From: a virus
Reading direction: 5' to 3' (one strand)
Virus record (IMG/VR): IMGVR_UViG_3300020394_001828
Span: 1-24,637 of that record
DNA: 24,637 nt
This document shows, in pieces, positions 4,533 through 14,500 of the stretch. The stretch's first letter is position 1. Each line of letters opens with the position of its first letter. The position numbers were made by a program, and so were the translations under genes. Under the pieces are notes generated by a model. It ran no database searches. It was not told the origin of the DNA and saw nothing but the letters and a program-made list of their open reading frames with translations.

Positions 4533-5018
4533 TTAATTTGAACTTCCAATTTTTCCTTTTTTCCTGGAAGATGCTTGTGTTAAAGATAAATATTCATTTT
4601 CGCTTAATTCATTGTAATGATTATCACATTTAACAACAACAATTTGGACTGGAAGTCTCTCGCCGTGTTTAATAGTAAATACCTGTGAGCTTAAGTTAAC
4701 TAAATTTACAAATATTTCGTCAGTGTATCCTGCGTCTATTACACCTGCTCTAACTTTTAAAGGTGTTTTAACAATAGATCCTCTTTCTTTAATATAAGCT
4801 ACATAATCTTTATTTAAAGATAAATGTAATCCTGTTGGTATTAATGTTTTTTTATAATCTTCAAAAGTCAAGCTTTTAACTGGTAATAATTCTATATCTG
4901 AACCGGTGTTGTATAAATCTAATCCTGCGCTTTCTCCACCGTAAGCAGGAAGATACTCTTCTACATTGTTTTCTTTTAGTATTTTTTTAAGTTCACTATT
5001 ACAAAATATATTAATCAT
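4533..5018 (-). CDS. dut: dUTP diphosphatase (trimeric dUTPase), 161 aa
   Basis: It hydrolyses dUTP to dUMP and diphosphate, keeping uracil out of DNA and feeding thymidylate synthesis. The five trimeric dUTPase motifs are in order: I SAGLDLY (30-36), II ERGSIVKT (78-85, usually PRSGLA), III RAGVIDAGYTDEI (90-102, with the catalytic Asp of VIDAGY), IV GERLPVQIVV (119-128) and V RKKGKIGSS (152-160). Motifs II and V are divergent: the phenylalanine of the usual RGxxGFGSTG that stacks on uracil appears as Ile157. The ATG overlaps the end of the helicase gene by 8 bases, suggesting translational coupling; only a weak AAAGAAG precedes it. The identity is clear, but kinetics may differ from the norm. 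Confidence 0.93.
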   Translation of the reverse strand: MINIFCNSELKKILKENNVEEYLPAYGGESAGLDLYNTGSDIELLPVKSLTFEDYKKTLIPTGLHLSLNKDYVAYIKERGSIVKTPLKVRAGVIDAGYTDEIFVNLVNLSSQVFTIKHGERLPVQIVVVKCDNHYNELSENEYLSLTQASSRKKGKIGSSN

Positions 5019-6390
5019 CTTCTTTATTATTTACTTCTTTCCATTTTTTCTTTAATAAATTTTTCATGTCACTTTGATCTTGTTTAACTGCTTCATTAAG
5101 AGTTAATTCAGTTTCATCCAATATTTCAAACTTAGATTTAGAAGTATCAATTTTAATTGGAAATAATAACCCGTCTCTTCCTGCACGATTTTTAGCAACA
5201 AATATTCTACCAGAGCCATCAGACTTTTCCATCGGTTTTCTACTAATTGACAAAACAATATCTGCAACTTGAGCTTTACCGTAAGCCTCAGACATATTTT
5301 CTAAACCAACAATATCAGATTTAGATGAATCTCTATTTGCTTGAGAAGCTGTCCAGATAGGAATATTCATATCAACAGCAAGATTTCTTAATTCTGTATA
5401 TATTAATTTTAATTCATGTCTTAAAGAATCATATGCCCTTGTAGATTTCATAACATCAGCGTAATCTACTACAACTAATCCGGGCTTTATCCCTTTTAAT
5501 ATTAATTTTTCTATGTGATTTCTAATTGTTACGACTGAAGCTGAACCGGTTGGATATTCTTTAATAACTAGCCTACCTAGTTCCATATCTTTGTATTTTT
5601 CTATTACTTCTTCTTTTCTTTCAATTATCTCATTAGAAGGAATATTACAAAGATTAGAATCGTATCTTTTTCCTGTTTCATGTTCTGAAAGTTCGAAAGT
5701 ATAATGTACGACATTTTTACCTGCCTTCATAGCTGCACAACCCATTGCAACTAAAAAGTGAGATTTACCAACTCCCGTATTTGCAGTAATTACTCCAATT
5801 TCACCTTTTCCTAAACCGCCTCTTAATATATCTTTTTGATCTAATCTTTTTAGTCCTGTAGGACAGACTTGTCTATTAATTTGAACAAATCGGGCTTCAA
5901 TGTCTTCAAAGAAATCATGACCGGTAGAACTTGGTAAACCTACGGAAACTGCTTCTTTCATAATGTTTAAAACTGATTCGTATTTTTCTGTTTGTATTAA
6001 TTCAACAGATTTTTCTAGAGCCTCTCTAAAAGCTTGTTTTTTACAAAATTCTAAAGACTTGTCTTTTACATATTCAAGATCACACATATCCGGATTGGAT
6101 TTCATTCTATGTAAATATTCAATTATCTGGTCTTTTAATAAGGCATCGCTAGACTTACTTAGATCATCTTTAATAATAGTTATTAAAATAGTCATAGTAG
6201 GAAAAGTTTTATACTTATGATAATAAGAAAAGTATTTCTCAGTAAGAAAAGTTAAATATTTTAAGTCAAAATAATCTGGAGATATTACTTCAATTATCTG
6301 AGCAGACCATATAGGGTCAGATAACATTGATTGGAAAACTTTTTCTTGAAAAGACTTTCCAAATTTAGAAAAATTTTTATTTGAATTCAT
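5011..6390 (-). CDS. Replicative DNA helicase, DnaB / T4 gp41 type, 459 aa
   Basis: A hexameric replicative helicase that unwinds DNA ahead of the polymerase. The N-terminal ~150 residues are helical and fit a DnaB-N or gp41-N domain. The RecA-like ATPase domain follows, with Walker A ANTGVGKS (203-210), Walker B LVVVDYADV (305-313, Asp309) and a sensor-type motif TASQANR (348-353). VAKNRAGRDG (398-407) carries arginines in the place of the DnaB arginine finger region. The C-terminal tail is charged. Length fits the family (gp41 475 aa, DnaB 471 aa). No primase domain is fused and none is encoded in the window. AGGA lies nine bases before the ATG, and a promoter-like sequence lies in the 97-bp spacer upstream. 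It overlaps the dUTPase gene by 8 bases. Confidence 0.93.
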   Translation of the reverse strand: MNSNKNFSKFGKSFQEKVFQSMLSDPIWSAQIIEVISPDYFDLKYLTFLTEKYFSYYHKYKTFPTMTILITIIKDDLSKSSDALLKDQIIEYLHRMKSNPDMCDLEYVKDKSLEFCKKQAFREALEKSVELIQTEKYESVLNIMKEAVSVGLPSSTGHDFFEDIEARFVQINRQVCPTGLKRLDQKDILRGGLGKGEIGVITANTGVGKSHFLVAMGCAAMKAGKNVVHYTFELSEHETGKRYDSNLCNIPSNEIIERKEEVIEKYKDMELGRLVIKEYPTGSASVVTIRNHIEKLILKGIKPGLVVVDYADVMKSTRAYDSLRHELKLIYTELRNLAVDMNIPIWTASQANRDSSKSDIVGLENMSEAYGKAQVADIVLSISRKPMEKSDGSGRIFVAKNRAGRDGLLFPIKIDTSKSKFEILDETELTLNEAVKQDQSDMKNLLKKKWKEVNNKEDD

Positions 6391-6487: not shown

Positions 6488-7438
6488 TCATGTAATATTT
6501 TTTAGAGACATGCAAAAAGCATGAGCATTAAAGTTATTTAATCCTTCTCTATTTAAAGTCTTAAGTATTTCTAATTTTTTTAATTTTTTATCTTTAGATT
6601 CATACTGGTAGTTTATAGCTTTTATTTGAGAAGCGCTTAACATAGCAGAGTCTAAATACATTAATTTCCAATTTTTTTTAATATCAAGCGCGTTTTCTAA
6701 TATTGCTTCATTAAACTTTGAATTAGTGCCAGAAATGACTTCTTCTTCAGTTCTATTAATTATATTTTCTACCGAAACAAAGTCTTCCCTGCTTAATTCT
6801 GGAAAGTTTTTAATTAATTTTTTAAATCCTACACCCTTTGCACCTTTAATTCCATCGCTCTGATCTCCTGCAAAACATCTTGCAGTACAAAAATTAGTAG
6901 GAGATATACCCCACTTTTTTAAAACATAATGCTTGTCAATTAAAGTTTTTTTATTAGGTGACCAAATAATGTTATTTTCATTTATTAGTTGATAATAATC
7001 TTTATCTGAGGTTATTATGATATTTTTGTTATCATTATTTTTTGTTTTACACAGATAAGATATTACGTCATCAGCTTCACAATCTTCAACATATATTTGT
7101 TTAACCGGAGTATTATTTAGTATTTCAATAATAGTTTTAAGCTGATAATTTCTGTTTTCTTCGGTATCAGGTATATCATTATAATAACTTCTATTTAAAG
7201 AAACAGGTCTTCTGCCTTCTTTGTAATTTTTATCAATGCTTCTTCTTCTAGCAGAACCTCTTCCTTCCCAAGCTACAACTACTTCATTAGGATAGAACAT
7301 TTCACTTAAGTTTTTTATATTGTTTAAAAATCCAAATATTCCGCCGCATAAAACACCATTTAATGACCTAGAAGGGTTTGCCGCGAAATGACGCATAAGT
7401 ACATTTAATCCATCAACATATATAACATGTTTTTTCAT
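6488..7438 (-). CDS. 5'-3' exonuclease / flap endonuclease (PolI N-terminal domain type), 316 aa
   Basis: A structure-specific 5' nuclease related to the 5' nuclease domain of PolA, T5 D15 and T4 RNase H, expected to remove RNA primers and flaps. The metal-binding acidic residues are present: Asp9 (YVDGLN), Glu118, Asp119, Glu121, Asp123 and Asp124 (VEDCEADDV), Asp145 and Asp147 (SDKDYYQL), and Asp192 and Asp195 (AGDQSDGIKG). The helix-3-turn-helix DNA grip is GIKGAKGVGFKKL (196-208). A basic arch precedes it (RRRSIDKNYKEGRR). I chose ATG at 7438, preceded by AAGTGA, over an in-frame GTG at 7447 that overlaps the recA stop and has no clear Shine-Dalgarno sequence. The recA stop lies six bases upstream, so coupling is likely. 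Confidence 0.92.
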   Translation of the reverse strand: MKKHVIYVDGLNVLMRHFAANPSRSLNGVLCGGIFGFLNNIKNLSEMFYPNEVVVAWEGRGSARRRSIDKNYKEGRRPVSLNRSYYNDIPDTEENRNYQLKTIIEILNNTPVKQIYVEDCEADDVISYLCKTKNNDNKNIIITSDKDYYQLINENNIIWSPNKKTLIDKHYVLKKWGISPTNFCTARCFAGDQSDGIKGAKGVGFKKLIKNFPELSREDFVSVENIINRTEEEVISGTNSKFNEAILENALDIKKNWKLMYLDSAMLSASQIKAINYQYESKDKKLKKLEILKTLNREGLNNFNAHAFCMSLKNIT

Positions 7439-7443
7439 AATAT

Positions 7444-8664
7444 TCACTTTAACATTTCAAATGCATCACTATCGTCATTTAAAATAGCTTCAGAAATTGC
7501 TTGTACTTCAGAATAACTTTCAGAATCAATATCAGGCTCTTCAATTTCATTTTTTCTGATCATGGCTTTTTCTAATAACATGTCAACATATTGACCGTAT
7601 TCAGGATGATCTACAATTTTATTAAAGTCTGCTTTGTAGAATTTTTTATCTACAATAACTTCGCCTGTATCCATTGTTGAAACTGTTAAGTTTTTCCATG
7701 CGCCTGTTCCACTAACTTCTATATGATAATTATCAATAGTTTCTGGCCCGTTTTTTCTTAATAAATCAAACATTTGTTCGTGCTCTTTAATTCCTTTTCC
7801 AAAATGTATTTCGAAATTACATGTTCTAAACGGTGCTGATACTTTGTTTTTAATAGTTTTTGCTGAAACATTGATACCAATTGGCTCTTTATCTTTATTT
7901 AAGATTTGTGAACCTGCGCCTAATTTAATTCTAACAGAACTGTGAAAAGGTATGGCCATTCCACCAGGAGTTGTAGTAGGATCTCCATACATTACACCTA
8001 CTTTAGTTCTAATTTGATTTAAACAAACCATGAGGACTTTTTCATTGGCAAGAACTCCTGTTATTTTTCGCATACCTTTCGAAATAGCACGTGCCTGAAG
8101 GCCTATGCTTTCCTTATCATAATCTCCTAATAATTCTGCTTTAGGCGCAGTTGCGGCAACAGAGTCCCAAATAATAGTAACAGGTACATCTTTATCCATT
8201 GCTTTAGCTTTAATAATAGTACTTTCTGCAATTGATAAAACTTCTTCAGTACAGTGTGTATCTATATAAACAAACCTTTTTGAAATATCAACTCCTAACA
8301 TCCTAAGATTTTCTATAGAAGTAGCATTTTCTGTGTCTATATAAACAACAATACCTTCCATTTGCTGCGTAGATCTTGCTATTTGAGTTGCAATGTGAGA
8401 TTTACCAATAGAAGGAGGTCCAAATATTTCTACTATTCTACCTTCAGGAAGACCGCCATTTTTTCTGTTTGAAATAATATAATCTAATTGCTTTGAACCA
8501 GTACTAATCCACCTTCTAACATGTGTAGGAGAATCATCTGTGCTTAAATTATAAGCTACCCTGTTGCCTCTTTCTTTGTTTAGCGATTTAATAAGATCAA
8601 TTGTAAAATCATTTGTTAAATCTTCTTTTTCTTTTTTATCTTTTTTTTTTGACTTGCCTGCCAT
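7444..8664 (-). CDS. recA: RecA-family recombinase, 406 aa
   Basis: A strand-exchange protein that forms filaments on ssDNA for recombination-dependent replication and repair. Walker A is GPPSIGKS (82-89), the catalytic Glu is Glu112 in IDTENA, Walker B is TIIWD (163-167), and the L1/L2 region includes NQIRTKVGVMYGDPTTTPGG (216-235). The GIKEHEQMFDLL segment is typical of bacterial RecA. In length and in the L2 TPGG signature it looks closer to bacterial RecA than to T4 UvsX. The N-terminus is very Lys-rich (GKSKKKDKKEKED) and the C-terminus acidic, as in RecA. AAGGA precedes the ATG at 8664. It follows the gp32-like SSB gene, an arrangement that makes sense for the presynaptic complex; a UvsY-like mediator is not seen in the window. 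Confidence 0.94.
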   Translation of the reverse strand: MAGKSKKKDKKEKEDLTNDFTIDLIKSLNKERGNRVAYNLSTDDSPTHVRRWISTGSKQLDYIISNRKNGGLPEGRIVEIFGPPSIGKSHIATQIARSTQQMEGIVVYIDTENATSIENLRMLGVDISKRFVYIDTHCTEEVLSIAESTIIKAKAMDKDVPVTIIWDSVAATAPKAELLGDYDKESIGLQARAISKGMRKITGVLANEKVLMVCLNQIRTKVGVMYGDPTTTPGGMAIPFHSSVRIKLGAGSQILNKDKEPIGINVSAKTIKNKVSAPFRTCNFEIHFGKGIKEHEQMFDLLRKNGPETIDNYHIEVSGTGAWKNLTVSTMDTGEVIVDKKFYKADFNKIVDHPEYGQYVDMLLEKAMIRKNEIEEPDIDSESYSEVQAISEAILNDDSDAFEMLK

Positions 8665-8725: not shown

Positions 8726-9508
8726 TTAGCTTGATAAATCAGCAAAAGCATCATCTAAACTTTTATATTTCCCAGAAGCAACGTCAGGAGAATTGTTTTC
8801 TATAGATGACTTCTTTGAATGAGAACTATAACTAGAATTATTTTCTGATTCTTCATCCTCATTTAACCAGTCATTTATAATTTTCTCTAATTCTTCGTAA
8901 GATTTAAGAGAAAACATATCATCAATATTTGGAATTGAATCAACTAATTCCTTAATTTTAGAAGAATCTTCATGTAAAGGACTGTCTTTTCCTCTCGGTC
9001 TTACTTCTGTAGTTGCCCACATTCTCCCAGGTGTTTTTGTGCATAAAACTCTAATATCACGGCCTGATTCTGGGTCTGTAATATCTCCATAATCTTCATC
9101 TAACATAAAATTTAAAAGACTTTGATAAATAGTTTTACCAAATGCCCAAATTCTTACACCTTTATCTTCTTCACCTCTAACAATTACAGGAGCGTAAATT
9201 CTCATTTTAGGATAAAGCTTTTTAGCCATTTCATATGATTCTTTTGTACCTTCATCTCTTAACTTATTAATTAATTCTTGAATAGGATCAGGCTTTCCAA
9301 ATTGATTAGGTGTAAGAATACCGGGATTGTTTCCAATGTTATAGTAAAAGTATCTTTCAACAAATGGCTGGCCTTCATTGTTTGGGAATGATAGAAGTCT
9401 TACTGTTGTTTCTTCACCTTCTTCTGGGCGCCACATCGATGATCTTTTTGATGATTGTCCGTTTAATTGATTTAGTTTCTTTCTAATTGCAGATAAATCT
9501 ACTGGCAT
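8726..9508 (-). CDS. Single-stranded DNA-binding protein, T4 gp32-like, 260 aa
   Basis: It coats ssDNA at the replication fork and in recombination. The layout follows gp32 (301 aa): a basic N-terminus with a LAST-like SSKRSS (19-24) for cooperativity, an OB-fold core at about 30-200, and an acidic, Ser/Asn-rich tail (215-260) ending SLDDAFADLSS, which resembles SSB C-terminal interaction tips. Core signatures include FVERYFYYNIG (49-59), IWAFGKTIYQSL (120-131) and VRPRGKDSPL (169-178). The Cys/His zinc ribbon of T4 gp32 is absent: the corresponding stretch (60-80) has no Cys or His. AAGGA lies upstream of the ATG. A promoter-like sequence and an inverted repeat in the 114-bp leader suggest its own regulation, as known for T4 gene 32. 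Confidence 0.88.
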   Translation of the reverse strand: MPVDLSAIRKKLNQLNGQSSKRSSMWRPEEGEETTVRLLSFPNNEGQPFVERYFYYNIGNNPGILTPNQFGKPDPIQELINKLRDEGTKESYEMAKKLYPKMRIYAPVIVRGEEDKGVRIWAFGKTIYQSLLNFMLDEDYGDITDPESGRDIRVLCTKTPGRMWATTEVRPRGKDSPLHEDSSKIKELVDSIPNIDDMFSLKSYEELEKIINDWLNEDEESENNSSYSSHSKKSSIENNSPDVASGKYKSLDDAFADLSS

Positions 9509-9622: not shown

Positions 9623-9832
9623 TTATTTTTTTATTTTTTTAGCTTTTTTAGGCTTCTTAACTTTTTTAGCTTTTAACTCTTCTTCAGATTCTTTATAAGT
9701 TTTTGTAGGTATTGCAATATTTCCATTTGTTGTAACAGCGTTTCCTTGAACACCAACTGCAGAAGGTCCTCCGACTGTATTGAATTCTTTCATCAGTCTA
9801 TTTAATATTTTTTCATAAATAATATGATTCAT
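9623..9832 (-). CDS. Small Lys-rich protein, 69 aa, unknown
   Basis: I do not recognise it. The N-terminal 20 residues look helical, followed by a Gly/Ala/Asn-rich flexible stretch (GGPSAVGVQGNAVTTNGNI, 21-39) and a strongly basic tail with repeated KK/KKPKKAKK motifs (54-69). Such tails bind nucleic acid or acidic proteins. It has a strong AAGGAG five bases before the ATG, 39 bp after the HD-like gene, and lies just upstream of the SSB gene. The position suggests a nucleic-acid-associated role, but the Gly-rich middle would also fit a minor virion protein. Confidence 0.72.
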   Translation of the reverse strand: MNHIIYEKILNRLMKEFNTVGGPSAVGVQGNAVTTNGNIAIPTKTYKESEEELKAKKVKKPKKAKKIKK

Positions 9833-9871: not shown

Positions 9872-10474
9872 TTAGAAAGGAACAGTATAATTTAAGTTAA
9901 TTTTATCTATTTCATTTTTAATTACTACTTCTTTAGATAAAGATAATAGTGTACCCAACCTAGACTTATGTGTATTATAAAATTTTGATTCTTCAGTAAA
10001 TCTTCCTTTTAATAGATAAATAGCTTGCCATTCATCCCAAGTTAAACTTATATTATATTTTTGGCAATACCATAAAGTCATATCGTAAACATCATATCGG
10101 CAACAAGCCTCGTTCCAATCATATAATAAACCTAATTTTTCTTTATGCCATTCAGATTTGTTTTCTACTAATCTATCATCATTAAAAGTACCAATTCTTC
10201 CAATTTCGCTTAATAAACAGCATTTTAATATACTAATTGAAGAAACTTCATAGCCTAGAGCAGTGTCTAATTTTTTAGCTGTTGAAGCAAGCTCTAACAT
10301 AAATTCAACAACACCTCCAATACCACAAAAAGGCTCTTTTTCTTTTAAAGAATAAGAAGCTTCTATAATTCTTTGACCTTGATCTTCAATTAAATTATTG
10401 ATGTTTTCATCTTCAAGTTTTTCGATAATATTTGTGTATTTATTCCATAATTGCTCAAAATTTCTATCAATCAT
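9872..10474 (-). CDS. Degenerate HD-domain (phosphohydrolase-like) protein, 200 aa
   Basis: The pattern matches phage HD-superfamily phosphohydrolases that carry GGLVDHS..., HDLGKIG, a W-H-x-E-K-L-G motif and a terminal MAD. Here the scaffold is kept: GGVVEFML (53-60), SEIGRIG (89-95), SEWHKEKLGLLY (107-118), ISLTWDEWQAIYLLKGRF (142-159), LGTLLSLSKEV (173-183). The metal ligands are replaced: the first His by Phe58, the HD pair by Ser89-Glu90 and the last Asp by about Lys181. It probably folds like the family but cannot bind the usual metals, so an inactive, structural or regulatory role is inferred. Its ATG overlaps the polymerase stop by 8 bases and AGGAG precedes it. The alignment is by eye. 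Confidence 0.7.
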   Translation of the reverse strand: MIDRNFEQLWNKYTNIIEKLEDENINNLIEDQGQRIIEASYSLKEKEPFCGIGGVVEFMLELASTAKKLDTALGYEVSSISILKCCLLSEIGRIGTFNDDRLVENKSEWHKEKLGLLYDWNEACCRYDVYDMTLWYCQKYNISLTWDEWQAIYLLKGRFTEESKFYNTHKSRLGTLLSLSKEVVIKNEIDKINLNYTVPF

Positions 10475-11537
10475 TTTTGCTCCTGTTAAATGTCTCGATT
10501 TTTATAGGAAAATATCCTAATTTTTTATTTAAATAACCTTTTTCTATTAATTTACAAAATTCTTCTTTATATTCTTTATTAACGTCAAAAACAAGAGAAT
10601 CATGTATAATAAACAACGGCACTGCATTTTTTAAATCCAGTTTTTCAATTAACTCTGAAAAGTATGATAAGGAAATATCAACTGCAGAAGATTGTATATA
10701 ATTGTTTATTAAAATATGTTGCTTTTCTTCTTTTAAGTTCCATATAGGTTTTCCAACGCAATTTCTTCTAATTCCTACTTCATCAATGTTTTTAGATAAC
10801 TTATATATTTCTTCTATTTTAAAGTAATCTTTTACTACTTTTAATATTTCTTCAGATTTTTCTTTTGAAAACCCTTCAATTGAATTTTTACCGTATAAAA
10901 CAGAAATAGTTGCCCTTTTAGCAACAGATCTATCAATTTTAAAAGATAAATAATTTTTTATATCTTCATATACATCTTCTCTGTCTTTTACGTTGCTTAA
11001 TTTTAAACATAACCTTGGCTCTAAAGAAACAAAATCAATACTTAATATTTCTCCGTTACTAAACCTAGACTTAAATATACTCCTACATCTTTTAGGTAAT
11101 GTTAAAACATTTGCAGAGTTATCTACAGTTAGGCGTCCTGAGACATTGTTGTGTCTTTTATATTTTATAGGATTTATAAAACCTTTCTTATTAGGCTTAA
11201 ATCTGTATAATGTTGAAATAATTGTTTCGTTTTTTTCTTTTTCTAAAAATATTTTTAAAACTATTTTATCGATAAAAACTTCTTCTAACTTTGAAAATAA
11301 AAAGCTATGTTTATCAAAAGTTTTAATATATTCATGTTTTTCATCTAATTTGAAAAGCTTTTCTTTTTTTTTAAAAAAACTTTCTTTCCATTCTGATTTT
11401 AAAAAATCAGGTAATATTTCTTCAATATCAAACTCTTCTTTTATTTCTTTGAAGAAATTTACGCTTTTCTTGAAATTGTCATATAAGTCTATATTGTAAA
11501 CATCAAACTTTAATTCTTCGTTTTTTGTAATAATCAT
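10467..11537 (-). CDS. Family A DNA polymerase, palm and fingers only, 356 aa
   Basis: The C-terminal half matches the PolI polymerase domain. Motif A is SIDFVSLEPR (166-175) with Asp168 (D705 in E. coli) and Glu173 (E710, the steric gate). Motif B is DRSVAKRATISVLYG (202-216), giving Arg203, Lys207, Ile211 and Tyr215 for R754, K758, F762 and Y766. Motif C is IHDSL (311-315), Asp313 for D882, with Ser instead of Glu883. QSSAVD (282-287) fits the conserved NxxIQxxAxD helix. Residues 1-120 are charged and match no 3'-5' exonuclease motif, and the protein is well under the usual 600-930 aa. The 5' nuclease is encoded separately (6488-7438). The ATG has no Shine-Dalgarno sequence. It is the first replication gene after the tail module. 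Confidence 0.9.
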   Translation of the reverse strand: MIITKNEELKFDVYNIDLYDNFKKSVNFFKEIKEEFDIEEILPDFLKSEWKESFFKKKEKLFKLDEKHEYIKTFDKHSFLFSKLEEVFIDKIVLKIFLEKEKNETIISTLYRFKPNKKGFINPIKYKRHNNVSGRLTVDNSANVLTLPKRCRSIFKSRFSNGEILSIDFVSLEPRLCLKLSNVKDREDVYEDIKNYLSFKIDRSVAKRATISVLYGKNSIEGFSKEKSEEILKVVKDYFKIEEIYKLSKNIDEVGIRRNCVGKPIWNLKEEKQHILINNYIQSSAVDISLSYFSELIEKLDLKNAVPLFIIHDSLVFDVNKEYKEEFCKLIEKGYLNKKLGYFPIKIETFNRSKND

Positions 11538-11587: not shown

Positions 11588-14500
11588 TTATTCTTCTTCT
11601 ACATACTTTTCTATTTTAAGGGAATCAAAAGACTTGTCTTTGTTTTCATAAAGATAATGTAGCCAAGGTTCTACAGGTTTTTTACTAGCACCGTAAGACC
11701 ATATTGCTGAAGGTGATTTTTTGTATTGCGGGCTATCTTTAGCAATGTCAATATGAATTGCATAATTTTGATAATTAGAGCCAATACCAATTGACAACCC
11801 TTCTGAAAGTGCTTTATGGACAAATTTTAAAAGAGGCAATGTTTCACTATCTGTATATGTTAAACCTTTTTTTGATACATCTTTAAAAGCTTTTTTTAAT
11901 ATATTTCTGTATCTTGCTTCTATATTTTTAACATCTCCTCTTAAATTGCTTGACAATTGAGGATATTTCTTTAAAGTTTTTAAGTATCCTTTTTCTTTAT
12001 TAGATTTATGATTTATTTTACATATACTTTCTAAAGGAAAGAATTTTCTACTTGTAACATGATTATCTTTTGTATATAATCTAATGTCAGCTGCATAACC
12101 ATCGTCATGTCTTTTCGAACCTGTCCTGCTGTAAGTAATCCCCTTGACAGTAACAGTATTTCGTGGTTGCCCGCCAGATACTATGCTAACAATTAAGTTA
12201 AATTTTTCAGCGTAATCTTTTAATTTATTAAATAAAGCGGGTTGTATGCCAGATTTTCTTATTGCATCTTGATTTTTATAAATGACAGAGCCCGTTGATG
12301 TTAAATTTCCTTGTGATGTTAAATTAATTGGATTAAATTTATAAAATCTATTGTCTTCTTTTTTATTATTATTATCTTTGTCACTTATTTCTGAAAATGT
12401 TTCTTTAAATTCTTTTAATTCTTCTTTTAGCAAGCTATAAACGAATTCGTATTCTTTTTCATTTTGATAACCAAAATAATAATCTTCTTCAGGTAAAGGA
12501 CTGCCGTCTAATTCTAAAATTTCTGTTTGTTTTATTTTATTAATTTTACTTTCTTCTAAAAATTCATAATCATCAAATATTTCTTTTATATACTGATACA
12601 TGTAATTTTGATCATCATAAAAAACATTATATTCCCCATCTTTAAATTCTATTTTATCAAAGGCATATAAGTCTTCAGTTACATGATTTTTAAAAGACAA
12701 AAAAGATATATCTTTTTTGCAAAGAAAAACTAGACGTTTATTTAAGTCGTTTAACTTTTTTATAATTTCTTTATTTTTTTCTTGGTCTATTTGATTGTCA
12801 AACGTATCATTTAATGATTCAAAATTTTCTTTAAAATTTAAAAATCCCGCATAAACAATATCACTGTTGATTATATGAGAAAATGAAAGATTTTTATATA
12901 AGAAAATCTCTTCGCTTAAACTGCTAACTTTTGGTGATTCATCATATTTTGATTTTATATTAAATTTATTTTTTTGTGTTACTATTAATTCCGATGAATT
13001 ATCTTTATTTAGACTATAATTTATTACTTTTCCATTATTTTCTTTTTTAACTTCGATATAAATTAATTCTTTTTTTATATCTTCTAAAGTTATATCATCA
13101 TTTTCTACTTTAGCAACATTGATATTTGATAATACATTTAAATATTCAAAATAAATATTGTTTTTTATTTTTGAATTCAAGTTGCTGAAAAAGCTAGTAT
13201 TATATAATTTAATATTGTTTTCATTATTAGAAGTTGTAAAATCAATAGAATCTTTTTCTCTAAGATTTAAAAGATAATTATATTTTGGTTTATATAAAGA
13301 AATATTTTCAACCACTGTATTGTTATTTTTAATAATTGAAATATTTGTATTACTGATTTCATCTTTAATGTTTAAACTAAAAATTCCAATATTAGTTTTT
13401 AAATTTTTTATTGCTTTTTTAAATTTGCTAAATTTTAGATCATTTGCTATTATGTTACTTCTAAAATGATTTTCTGAAAGCATTATTTTATTTAAACTAA
13501 TATTAAAAATTTCGTTGTTTGAAAAATCTTCAGACTCAACTTCAGAAAGAATAAACTTTTTTGTAAACATGTTTTTTGATATATCGAAAAGCATAGGCTT
13601 TCTAATACCAGGTTTTATCATATTATTAGTAAATTCAAAATCTTTTTCTGTTTGATTTATAACTCTTTCTAATTTGTTTATTTTTTTTCTTTTCTTTATT
13701 GTTTTTTTAACATTCCTGTTTTTATTTATTCTTTCTTTATAAGACTTATTTTTCTTATGAACGTTATTAATCATTTCAGAATTAAATTCAAAGCTACCAT
13801 ATGCGTCGCCATATGCTAATTTAACGTTCGTTCTGAAAGATTCTTTTGTTATAGAATGAGAAATACCAGTTACAGTATACAAATTGTCAACTGTAGTTCC
13901 TGTACCGAATTCTAAAAATATCCCTTGGTTGAAATTAATCCAAGGACAACCAATAGTTTCTATTGTAGCTTGTGCTGGTAAAACTCTTAAAGGTATTTTT
14001 AAATCAATTTTATTATTTTCTTTACCTATTTCATTTCTTTCATTATTAACAATAAAAAGTGTACTTAGTTTACCTTCGTTTATAGAGGATATGTTAGCAT
14101 TTAATAAAACGCTATTGGAACTTCCGAAAACTGCAGTAGGTAAGTATTTTTTATATGACTCTTTGATTGAATTTAATTCAAATTTATCACCAGGAATATA
14201 TTTTTTTCCTAACTTCTTTAAAGACTTTTTTTCTACTAAATCTTTCAAAATATCTTTTTCTAATTGAATATTTGATCTATAATTGTTTTTTAAATTTGAA
14301 TTTCTTACTATATTAGCCGCTTTCTTAAAATCTTTTACATAATAATCATTTAATATCTTATTAATAGAATAAAATGGATTATTATTCTTATCATAGACAT
14401 GTATTTTTAATATATCTTTTCCTTTTTTAGACTTTAAGTTTTCAAAATGTATTGTTGGAAAACATTGTTTAAAATTAGGTGTTTCTTCTTCTATATCTAA

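Follow-up and report, generated by a model that had tools for sequence, protein, structure and literature searches.

A short family A DNA polymerase in the replication module of a large marine tailed phage: a probable gap-filling companion of a family C replicase

The window, by which we mean the whole stretch of DNA that was analysed, is an AT-rich viral record of 24,637 bases, and its source is a large marine tailed phage. A series of replication genes lies on its minus strand, headed by a short DNA polymerase of family A (PolA). The features of the polymerase and of its neighbours are listed below in the direction of transcription. Residue equivalents follow the E. coli numbering, and counts out of 76 refer to a family alignment of 76 complete, non-identical sequences (338-412 aa) that includes the window protein.

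10467-11537, minus strand: stand-alone family A DNA polymerase core (thumb, palm, fingers), 356 aa (open reading frame; Pfam DNA_pol_A, 2.2e-10; AlphaFold2 model; Foldseek)
11013-11036, minus strand: motif A of the polymerase, residues 168-175, DFVSLEPR (D705 and E710 equivalents); D and E invariant in 76/76
10890-10931, minus strand: motif B or O helix, residues 203-216 (R754, K758 and Y766 equivalents, I211 at the F762 position); R and K invariant, Y in 75/76
10596-10604, minus strand: motif C, residues 312-314, HDS (H881, D882 and E883 equivalents); H and D invariant in 76/76
9872-10474, minus strand: HD-fold protein of 200 aa that has lost the HD residues (Foldseek top match YhaM, 9h3f, E = 3.5e-3, TM 0.63)
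9623-9832, minus strand: open reading frame of 69 aa, without Pfam or PHROGs match
8726-9508, minus strand: gp32-like single-strand DNA binding protein, SSB (Pfam gp32, 3.1e-11; PHROG 1192, 1.4e-21)
7444-8664, minus strand: RecA/UvsX recombinase (Pfam RecA, 7e-62)
6488-7447, minus strand: separate 5'-3' nuclease, FEN-like (Pfam 5_3_exonuc_N, 2.6e-28)
5011-6390, minus strand: DnaB-like replicative helicase (PHROG 19, 5.2e-78)

The order PolA, HD-fold protein (or a DnaQ-type exonuclease), gp32-like SSB, RecA/UvsX, 5' nuclease and DnaB helicase is kept in every sufficiently long locus, across about 100 loci. Further downstream, the minus strand of the window encodes a dUTPase, both ribonucleotide reductase subunits and a ClpP-like protease. 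The first 8 bases of the HD-fold gene lie within the end of the polymerase gene, which suggests translational coupling of the two. As the preliminary description of this DNA had reported, the 5' nuclease is a separate gene, the fifth downstream of the polymerase, and it is the probable partner of the short enzyme. The 69-aa frame corresponds by place to frames of 547-549 aa in two other loci (L012, 6881-8524; L013, 7381-9030), which are perhaps the product of a fusion or insertion. Between positions 11588 and 24148, also on the minus strand, the window has frames of 1821, 1086 and 1112 aa without noteworthy Pfam or PHROGs match, and a 94-aa frame beside them shows a weak likeness to the tail sheath family phrog_15542. 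These long frames probably encode baseplate or tail proteins.

The polymerase reading frame has no internal stops, and residues 57-334 of its product match Pfam DNA_pol_A with 40.5 bits, against a curated cut-off of 34.3. The AlphaFold2 model (pLDDT 92.9, pTM 0.90) comprises thumb, palm and fingers only. Residues 1-111 form helices and one short strand, and the N-terminus of the model contains neither an exonuclease fold nor an exonuclease-like sheet. The absence of a 3'-5' exonuclease domain had been proposed from the sequence, with an exonuclease fold in the N-terminus named as the finding that would speak against it; the structure prediction has no such fold, and the proposal holds. The top PDB folds retrieved by Foldseek are the Klenow, Bst and Taq polymerases, and a profile search of PDB sequences returned polymerase nu, Taq and Klenow. 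The protein is therefore placed in family A by its score above the Pfam cut-off, by the catalytic residues of motifs A, B and C, and by its Klenow-type palm-fingers-thumb fold. Judged from sequence and model, it is a small, catalytically complete-looking family A polymerase, a Klenow-type core minus the exonuclease, with predicted polymerase activity. A reading as a defence gene was also considered and set aside, as PADLOC gave no match.

The 356-aa polymerase with motifs A, B and C was confirmed on the minus strand, with the residues named earlier in place (D168, K207, I211, Y215, Q282, D313 and S314). Across the family, the equivalents of R668, D705, E710, R754, K758, Q849, H881 and D882 are kept in 76/76 sequences and that of Y766 in 75/76. 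The position of F762 is occupied by Ile in 43 sequences, including Ile211 of the window, and by Leu in the other 33. The position of E883 has Ala in 73 sequences, Ser in two and Cys in one, the window having Ser314. The preliminary description had called both residues unusual, and this stands for one of them: Ile211 lies outside the reported phage types, yet 43 of the 76 sequences have it, while Ser314 belongs to a position that is Ala, Ser or Cys family-wide, and HDS at motif C is also found in Bacillus phage BM15, Enterococcus phage EF24C, Pelagibacter phage HTVC033P and Roseobacter phage CRP-3. As far as the text of Nasko et al. shows, the types at position 762 among phages are Phe, Tyr and Leu (PMC6302109), to which Ile would be an addition. 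The shortened stretch between motifs A and B was likewise confirmed, with a D168-K207 spacing of 39 in the window polymerase and 37-41 across the 76 sequences, compared with 53 by E. coli numbering.

In a search of annotated phages, the window polymerase had only weak matches, at 22-33% identity, to ordinary phage PolAs, and an IMG/VR scan with the single sequence gave no match. Using RecA as bait in IMG/VR, 80 loci were recovered (74-89% identity), and about 40 of them contain a polymerase homologue at 27-48% identity. A scan of IMG/VR with a polymerase profile returned 442 relatives in one scan. Three metagenome-assembled contigs in GTDB that are labelled bacterial also match (L227, L228 and L229, in bins labelled Halobacteriovorax, Rickettsiaceae and Flavobacteriales). 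All three appear to be phage contigs that ended up in bacterial bins, because L227 has the same length, 108,871 bases, as the IMG/VR contig L079.

DNA polymerase III alpha (PF07733) was identified in 16 of 24 IMG/VR relatives (10 of 12 in one search and 6 of 12 in another), a nominal count that exceeds the independent one because G011, G012 and G013 are near-copies. Measured along the direction of transcription, the gene lies 17-38 kb from the short PolA, distances that were read from tables with an accuracy of about 0.5 kb. It is present in all 15 related records that reach at least 57 kb downstream, and one record that ends at 24.4 kb carries it at 23.9 kb; the eight records without it end 0.6-28.6 kb downstream of PolA. 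The predicted proteins have PHP, NTPase/palm, finger and HhH domains with the catalytic Asp triad intact, and score much higher with DnaE-type models than with PolC. In the records that include the complete N-terminus, the PHP ligand motifs appear intact by eye. The IMG/VR relatives searched have one family A gene each and no family B polymerase. Only 10.5 kb of the window lie downstream of the short PolA, less than the 17-38 kb at which polymerase III alpha is found, and the corresponding gene of this phage presumably lies outside the 24.6-kb fragment.

Some genes of the relatives are broken. Polymerase III alpha is divided into two frames in L095 (8232-13081; 46232-51081 in G009), with N- and C-terminal parts of an intein at the break and a 328-aa frame between them, an arrangement like that of a fractured gene with a split intein. 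In G010 (L119) an apparent in-frame intein lies just ahead of PDIDTD, and the polymerase III alpha of L140 has an intein-like end at a different site. The large subunit of ribonucleotide reductase is in two frames in L047 (15520-18551), with N-terminal (4.9e-7) and C-terminal (4e-6) intein signatures and a group I intron endonuclease-like frame between the halves. The same broken arrangement, judged by gene order, is found in L038 (13998-17023); the large subunit in the window is unbroken. A second separate 5' nuclease, additional to that of the PolA module, lies beside a Cpn60 chaperonin gene in L094 (9822-10643), G010 (97580-98413) and G013 (84707-85546).

Regarding proofreading, the records of the window's subclade contain no separate DnaQ- or PolI-type exonuclease (PF00929, PF01612) above the cut-off, a level that a remote one could escape; the single sub-threshold match (E = 0.0055) falls within a 544-aa frame of G009. 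In 12 other loci a DnaQ-type DEDDh exonuclease is encoded downstream of PolA, where it occupies the slot of the HD-fold protein, and no locus has both. Of the two kinds of gene that the preliminary description had proposed to look for, a second polymerase is thus found in the relatives, and a DnaQ-like exonuclease was not detected above the cut-off in the subclade, yet is present in these 12 loci. Homologues of the HD-fold protein occur in about 100 loci, one of which, in L081, has an HDIG match of 4e-5. The catalytic HD doublet is kept in distant relatives, but neither the window nor most close relatives retain it, which leaves the HD-fold protein unsupported here as the missing exonuclease. 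An RM378_p024-like match in G010 (E = 0.004) was also rejected, having no obvious exonuclease motif. It is possible, though doubtful, that the module keeps the short PolA as its constant core while the full-size replicase encoded elsewhere is swapped between families A, B and C, and that the short PolA and the product of the neighbouring slot (a YhaM-like HD-fold protein in some loci, a DnaQ-type exonuclease in others) form or once formed a two-subunit enzyme of polymerase and trans-acting 3' nuclease. In some C-family polymerases the PHP domain acts as a proofreading exonuclease (PMC3919608, PMC5636811). Since the PHP ligand motifs of the relatives look intact, proofreading could come from polymerase III alpha.

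We favour the interpretation that the short PolA is an accessory, PolI-like gap-filling polymerase alongside a family C replicase, with a probability of about 0.7. The enzyme would act as the phage's own 'PolI' and, with the separate 5' nuclease, fill gaps and replace primers; replication of the genome would fall to the full-size family C polymerase (DNA polymerase III alpha with its PHP domain). A phage ATP-dependent ligase, found in 5 of 10 relatives, would join this work in half of the relatives checked. We infer the gap-filling role from two features that fit gap filling and primer replacement, the lack of proofreading and a 5' nuclease encoded nearby. Sequence conservation is consistent with an accessory function, because polymerase III is conserved like RecA and DnaB, whereas few genes of the module change as fast as the short PolA. 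Between G009 and G005, identity is 84% for polymerase III alpha, 88% for DnaB, 89% for RecA and 41% for the short PolA. In the near set, the median identity to the window is 46% for the short PolA, 55% for the HD protein, 62% for the 5' nuclease, 70% for SSB, 81% for DnaB and 85% for RecA, and among the six module genes the short PolA has the lowest identity in 51 of 63 loci, and in the remaining 12 the HD protein does. On the other side, the fast divergence of the short PolA could equally stem from an arms race, and the core module holds the short PolA, not the full-size enzyme. Furthermore, the search of the relatives for a beta clamp or gp45 clamp gave no match, which leaves the processivity of polymerase III unexplained.

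The preliminary description had left two roles side by side, and gap-filling repair is the better supported of them, given the polymerase III alpha of the relatives. The other, that of main replicase with the exonuclease encoded elsewhere, is disfavoured by the same full-size enzyme. In this role, the short PolA would be made processive by SSB and helicase, proofreading would be supplied in trans or absent, and the full-size polymerase would serve repair. The missing clamp argues in this direction, as do the DnaQ-type exonuclease that adjoins the short PolA in 12 loci and the position of the gene in a conserved module beside SSB, RecA and DnaB in about 100 loci, a context that Yutin et al. read as suggesting a part in replication (PMC11348598). 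However, a main replicase would be expected to have no other full-size polymerase beside it, and every relative with enough sequence carries polymerase III alpha with an intact catalytic triad. This enzyme is also far better conserved than the short PolA (84% vs 41% in the pair G009-G005), and the 356-aa model offers neither an exonuclease domain nor a visible processivity element. Taken together, we consider replication of the genome by the short PolA improbable.

It is also rather unlikely that the main task of the short PolA is, instead of gap filling, D-loop extension or lesion bypass during RecA-dependent recombination-repair, as for polymerases nu and theta. SSB and RecA are its neighbours, proofreading is absent, positions 762 and 883 are altered, and human polymerase nu is narrowly the best profile match among solved structures. 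The lead of nu over Taq is nevertheless marginal (52.1 vs 51.9 bits), and gap filling fits the same neighbourhood. Moreover, the bypass polymerases nu and theta are known for insertions, whereas the A-B stretch of the short PolA is shorter than that of PolI. A functionless, decaying remnant of a larger polymerase could account for the small size, the lost exonuclease domain and the fast divergence, and a full-length polymerase elsewhere had been put forward earlier as the finding that would make the gene such a remnant. A full-size enzyme does occur in the relatives, but the catalytic residues of the short PolA are invariant or nearly so in 76 distinct sequences down to 24-30% identity, its frame has no stops and its fold is confident, which makes decay very improbable.

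The 442 IMG/VR relatives greatly enlarge the known stock of short accessory PolAs, a kind that had been described from 14 phages, and the lineage of the window is shown to pair with a family C replicase. The protein is a natural exonuclease-free Klenow-type core of fewer than 360 residues, usable for biochemistry. Such a gene on a short contig should not be taken as the replicase, and the typing of virioplankton PolAs by position 762 presupposes that the enzyme has a genome-replication role.

In comparison with known systems, the window protein shares the fold and catalytic residues of bacterial DNA polymerase I (Klenow, Bst and Taq core), but lacks both a 3'-5' exonuclease domain and a fused 5' nuclease, and its family has a shorter A-B stretch, Ile or Leu in place of F762 and Ala or Ser in place of E883. 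Rhodothermus phage RM378, described as a Far-T4 phage, also has a polymerase gene without a fused exonuclease; its 522-aa polymerase, however, belongs to family B (PF00136, 1.2e-34), for which reason the split polymerase of RM378 was ruled out as a model for the window gene. RM378 also has no polymerase III alpha match. The Herelleviridae-type and marine podophage PolAs (BM15, EF24C, HTVC033P and CRP-3) are family A enzymes with HDS at motif C, but are larger (678 to 1038 aa, in a class of 578-1038 aa), have other neighbourhoods and fall outside the window clade in the tree.

An extra divergent phage PolA of the present kind was already described in 2024 (PMC11348598). This is divPolA1 of Yutin et al., found upstream of replication genes in 14 phages of 155-190 kb that also encode, at another locus, a regular DNAP of family A, B or C; its main catalytic residues are conserved, its 3'-5' exonuclease domain is inactivated and its thumb is truncated (PMC11348598). 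The window family is likewise an extra divergent PolA with the catalytic residues retained, the downstream order SSB, RecA, 5' nuclease and DnaB is shared, and the E883 position is non-acidic in both, including the 441-aa divPolA1 of Flavobacterium phage immuto. A full-size polymerase elsewhere is also common to both, seen for the window family in relatives (polymerase III alpha, 16/24). In contrast, the exonuclease domain is wholly absent from the window protein and inactivated but present in divPolA1. A short PolA of similar kind, with 408 aa, was found in this analysis in Microcystis phage Mel-JY01; the full-size partner is an 855-aa PolB frame in this phage and a 778-aa PolA frame in immuto. 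The motif A Glu (E710) is kept in the window family, whereas both phages have His. In the tree the window lineage groups with immuto and Mel-JY01 (93/91) on long branches, and hhalign of the window family against the immuto PolA gives a weak probability of 43%. From these sequence comparisons, the window family probably functions like divPolA1, as a sister lineage rather than a proven member.
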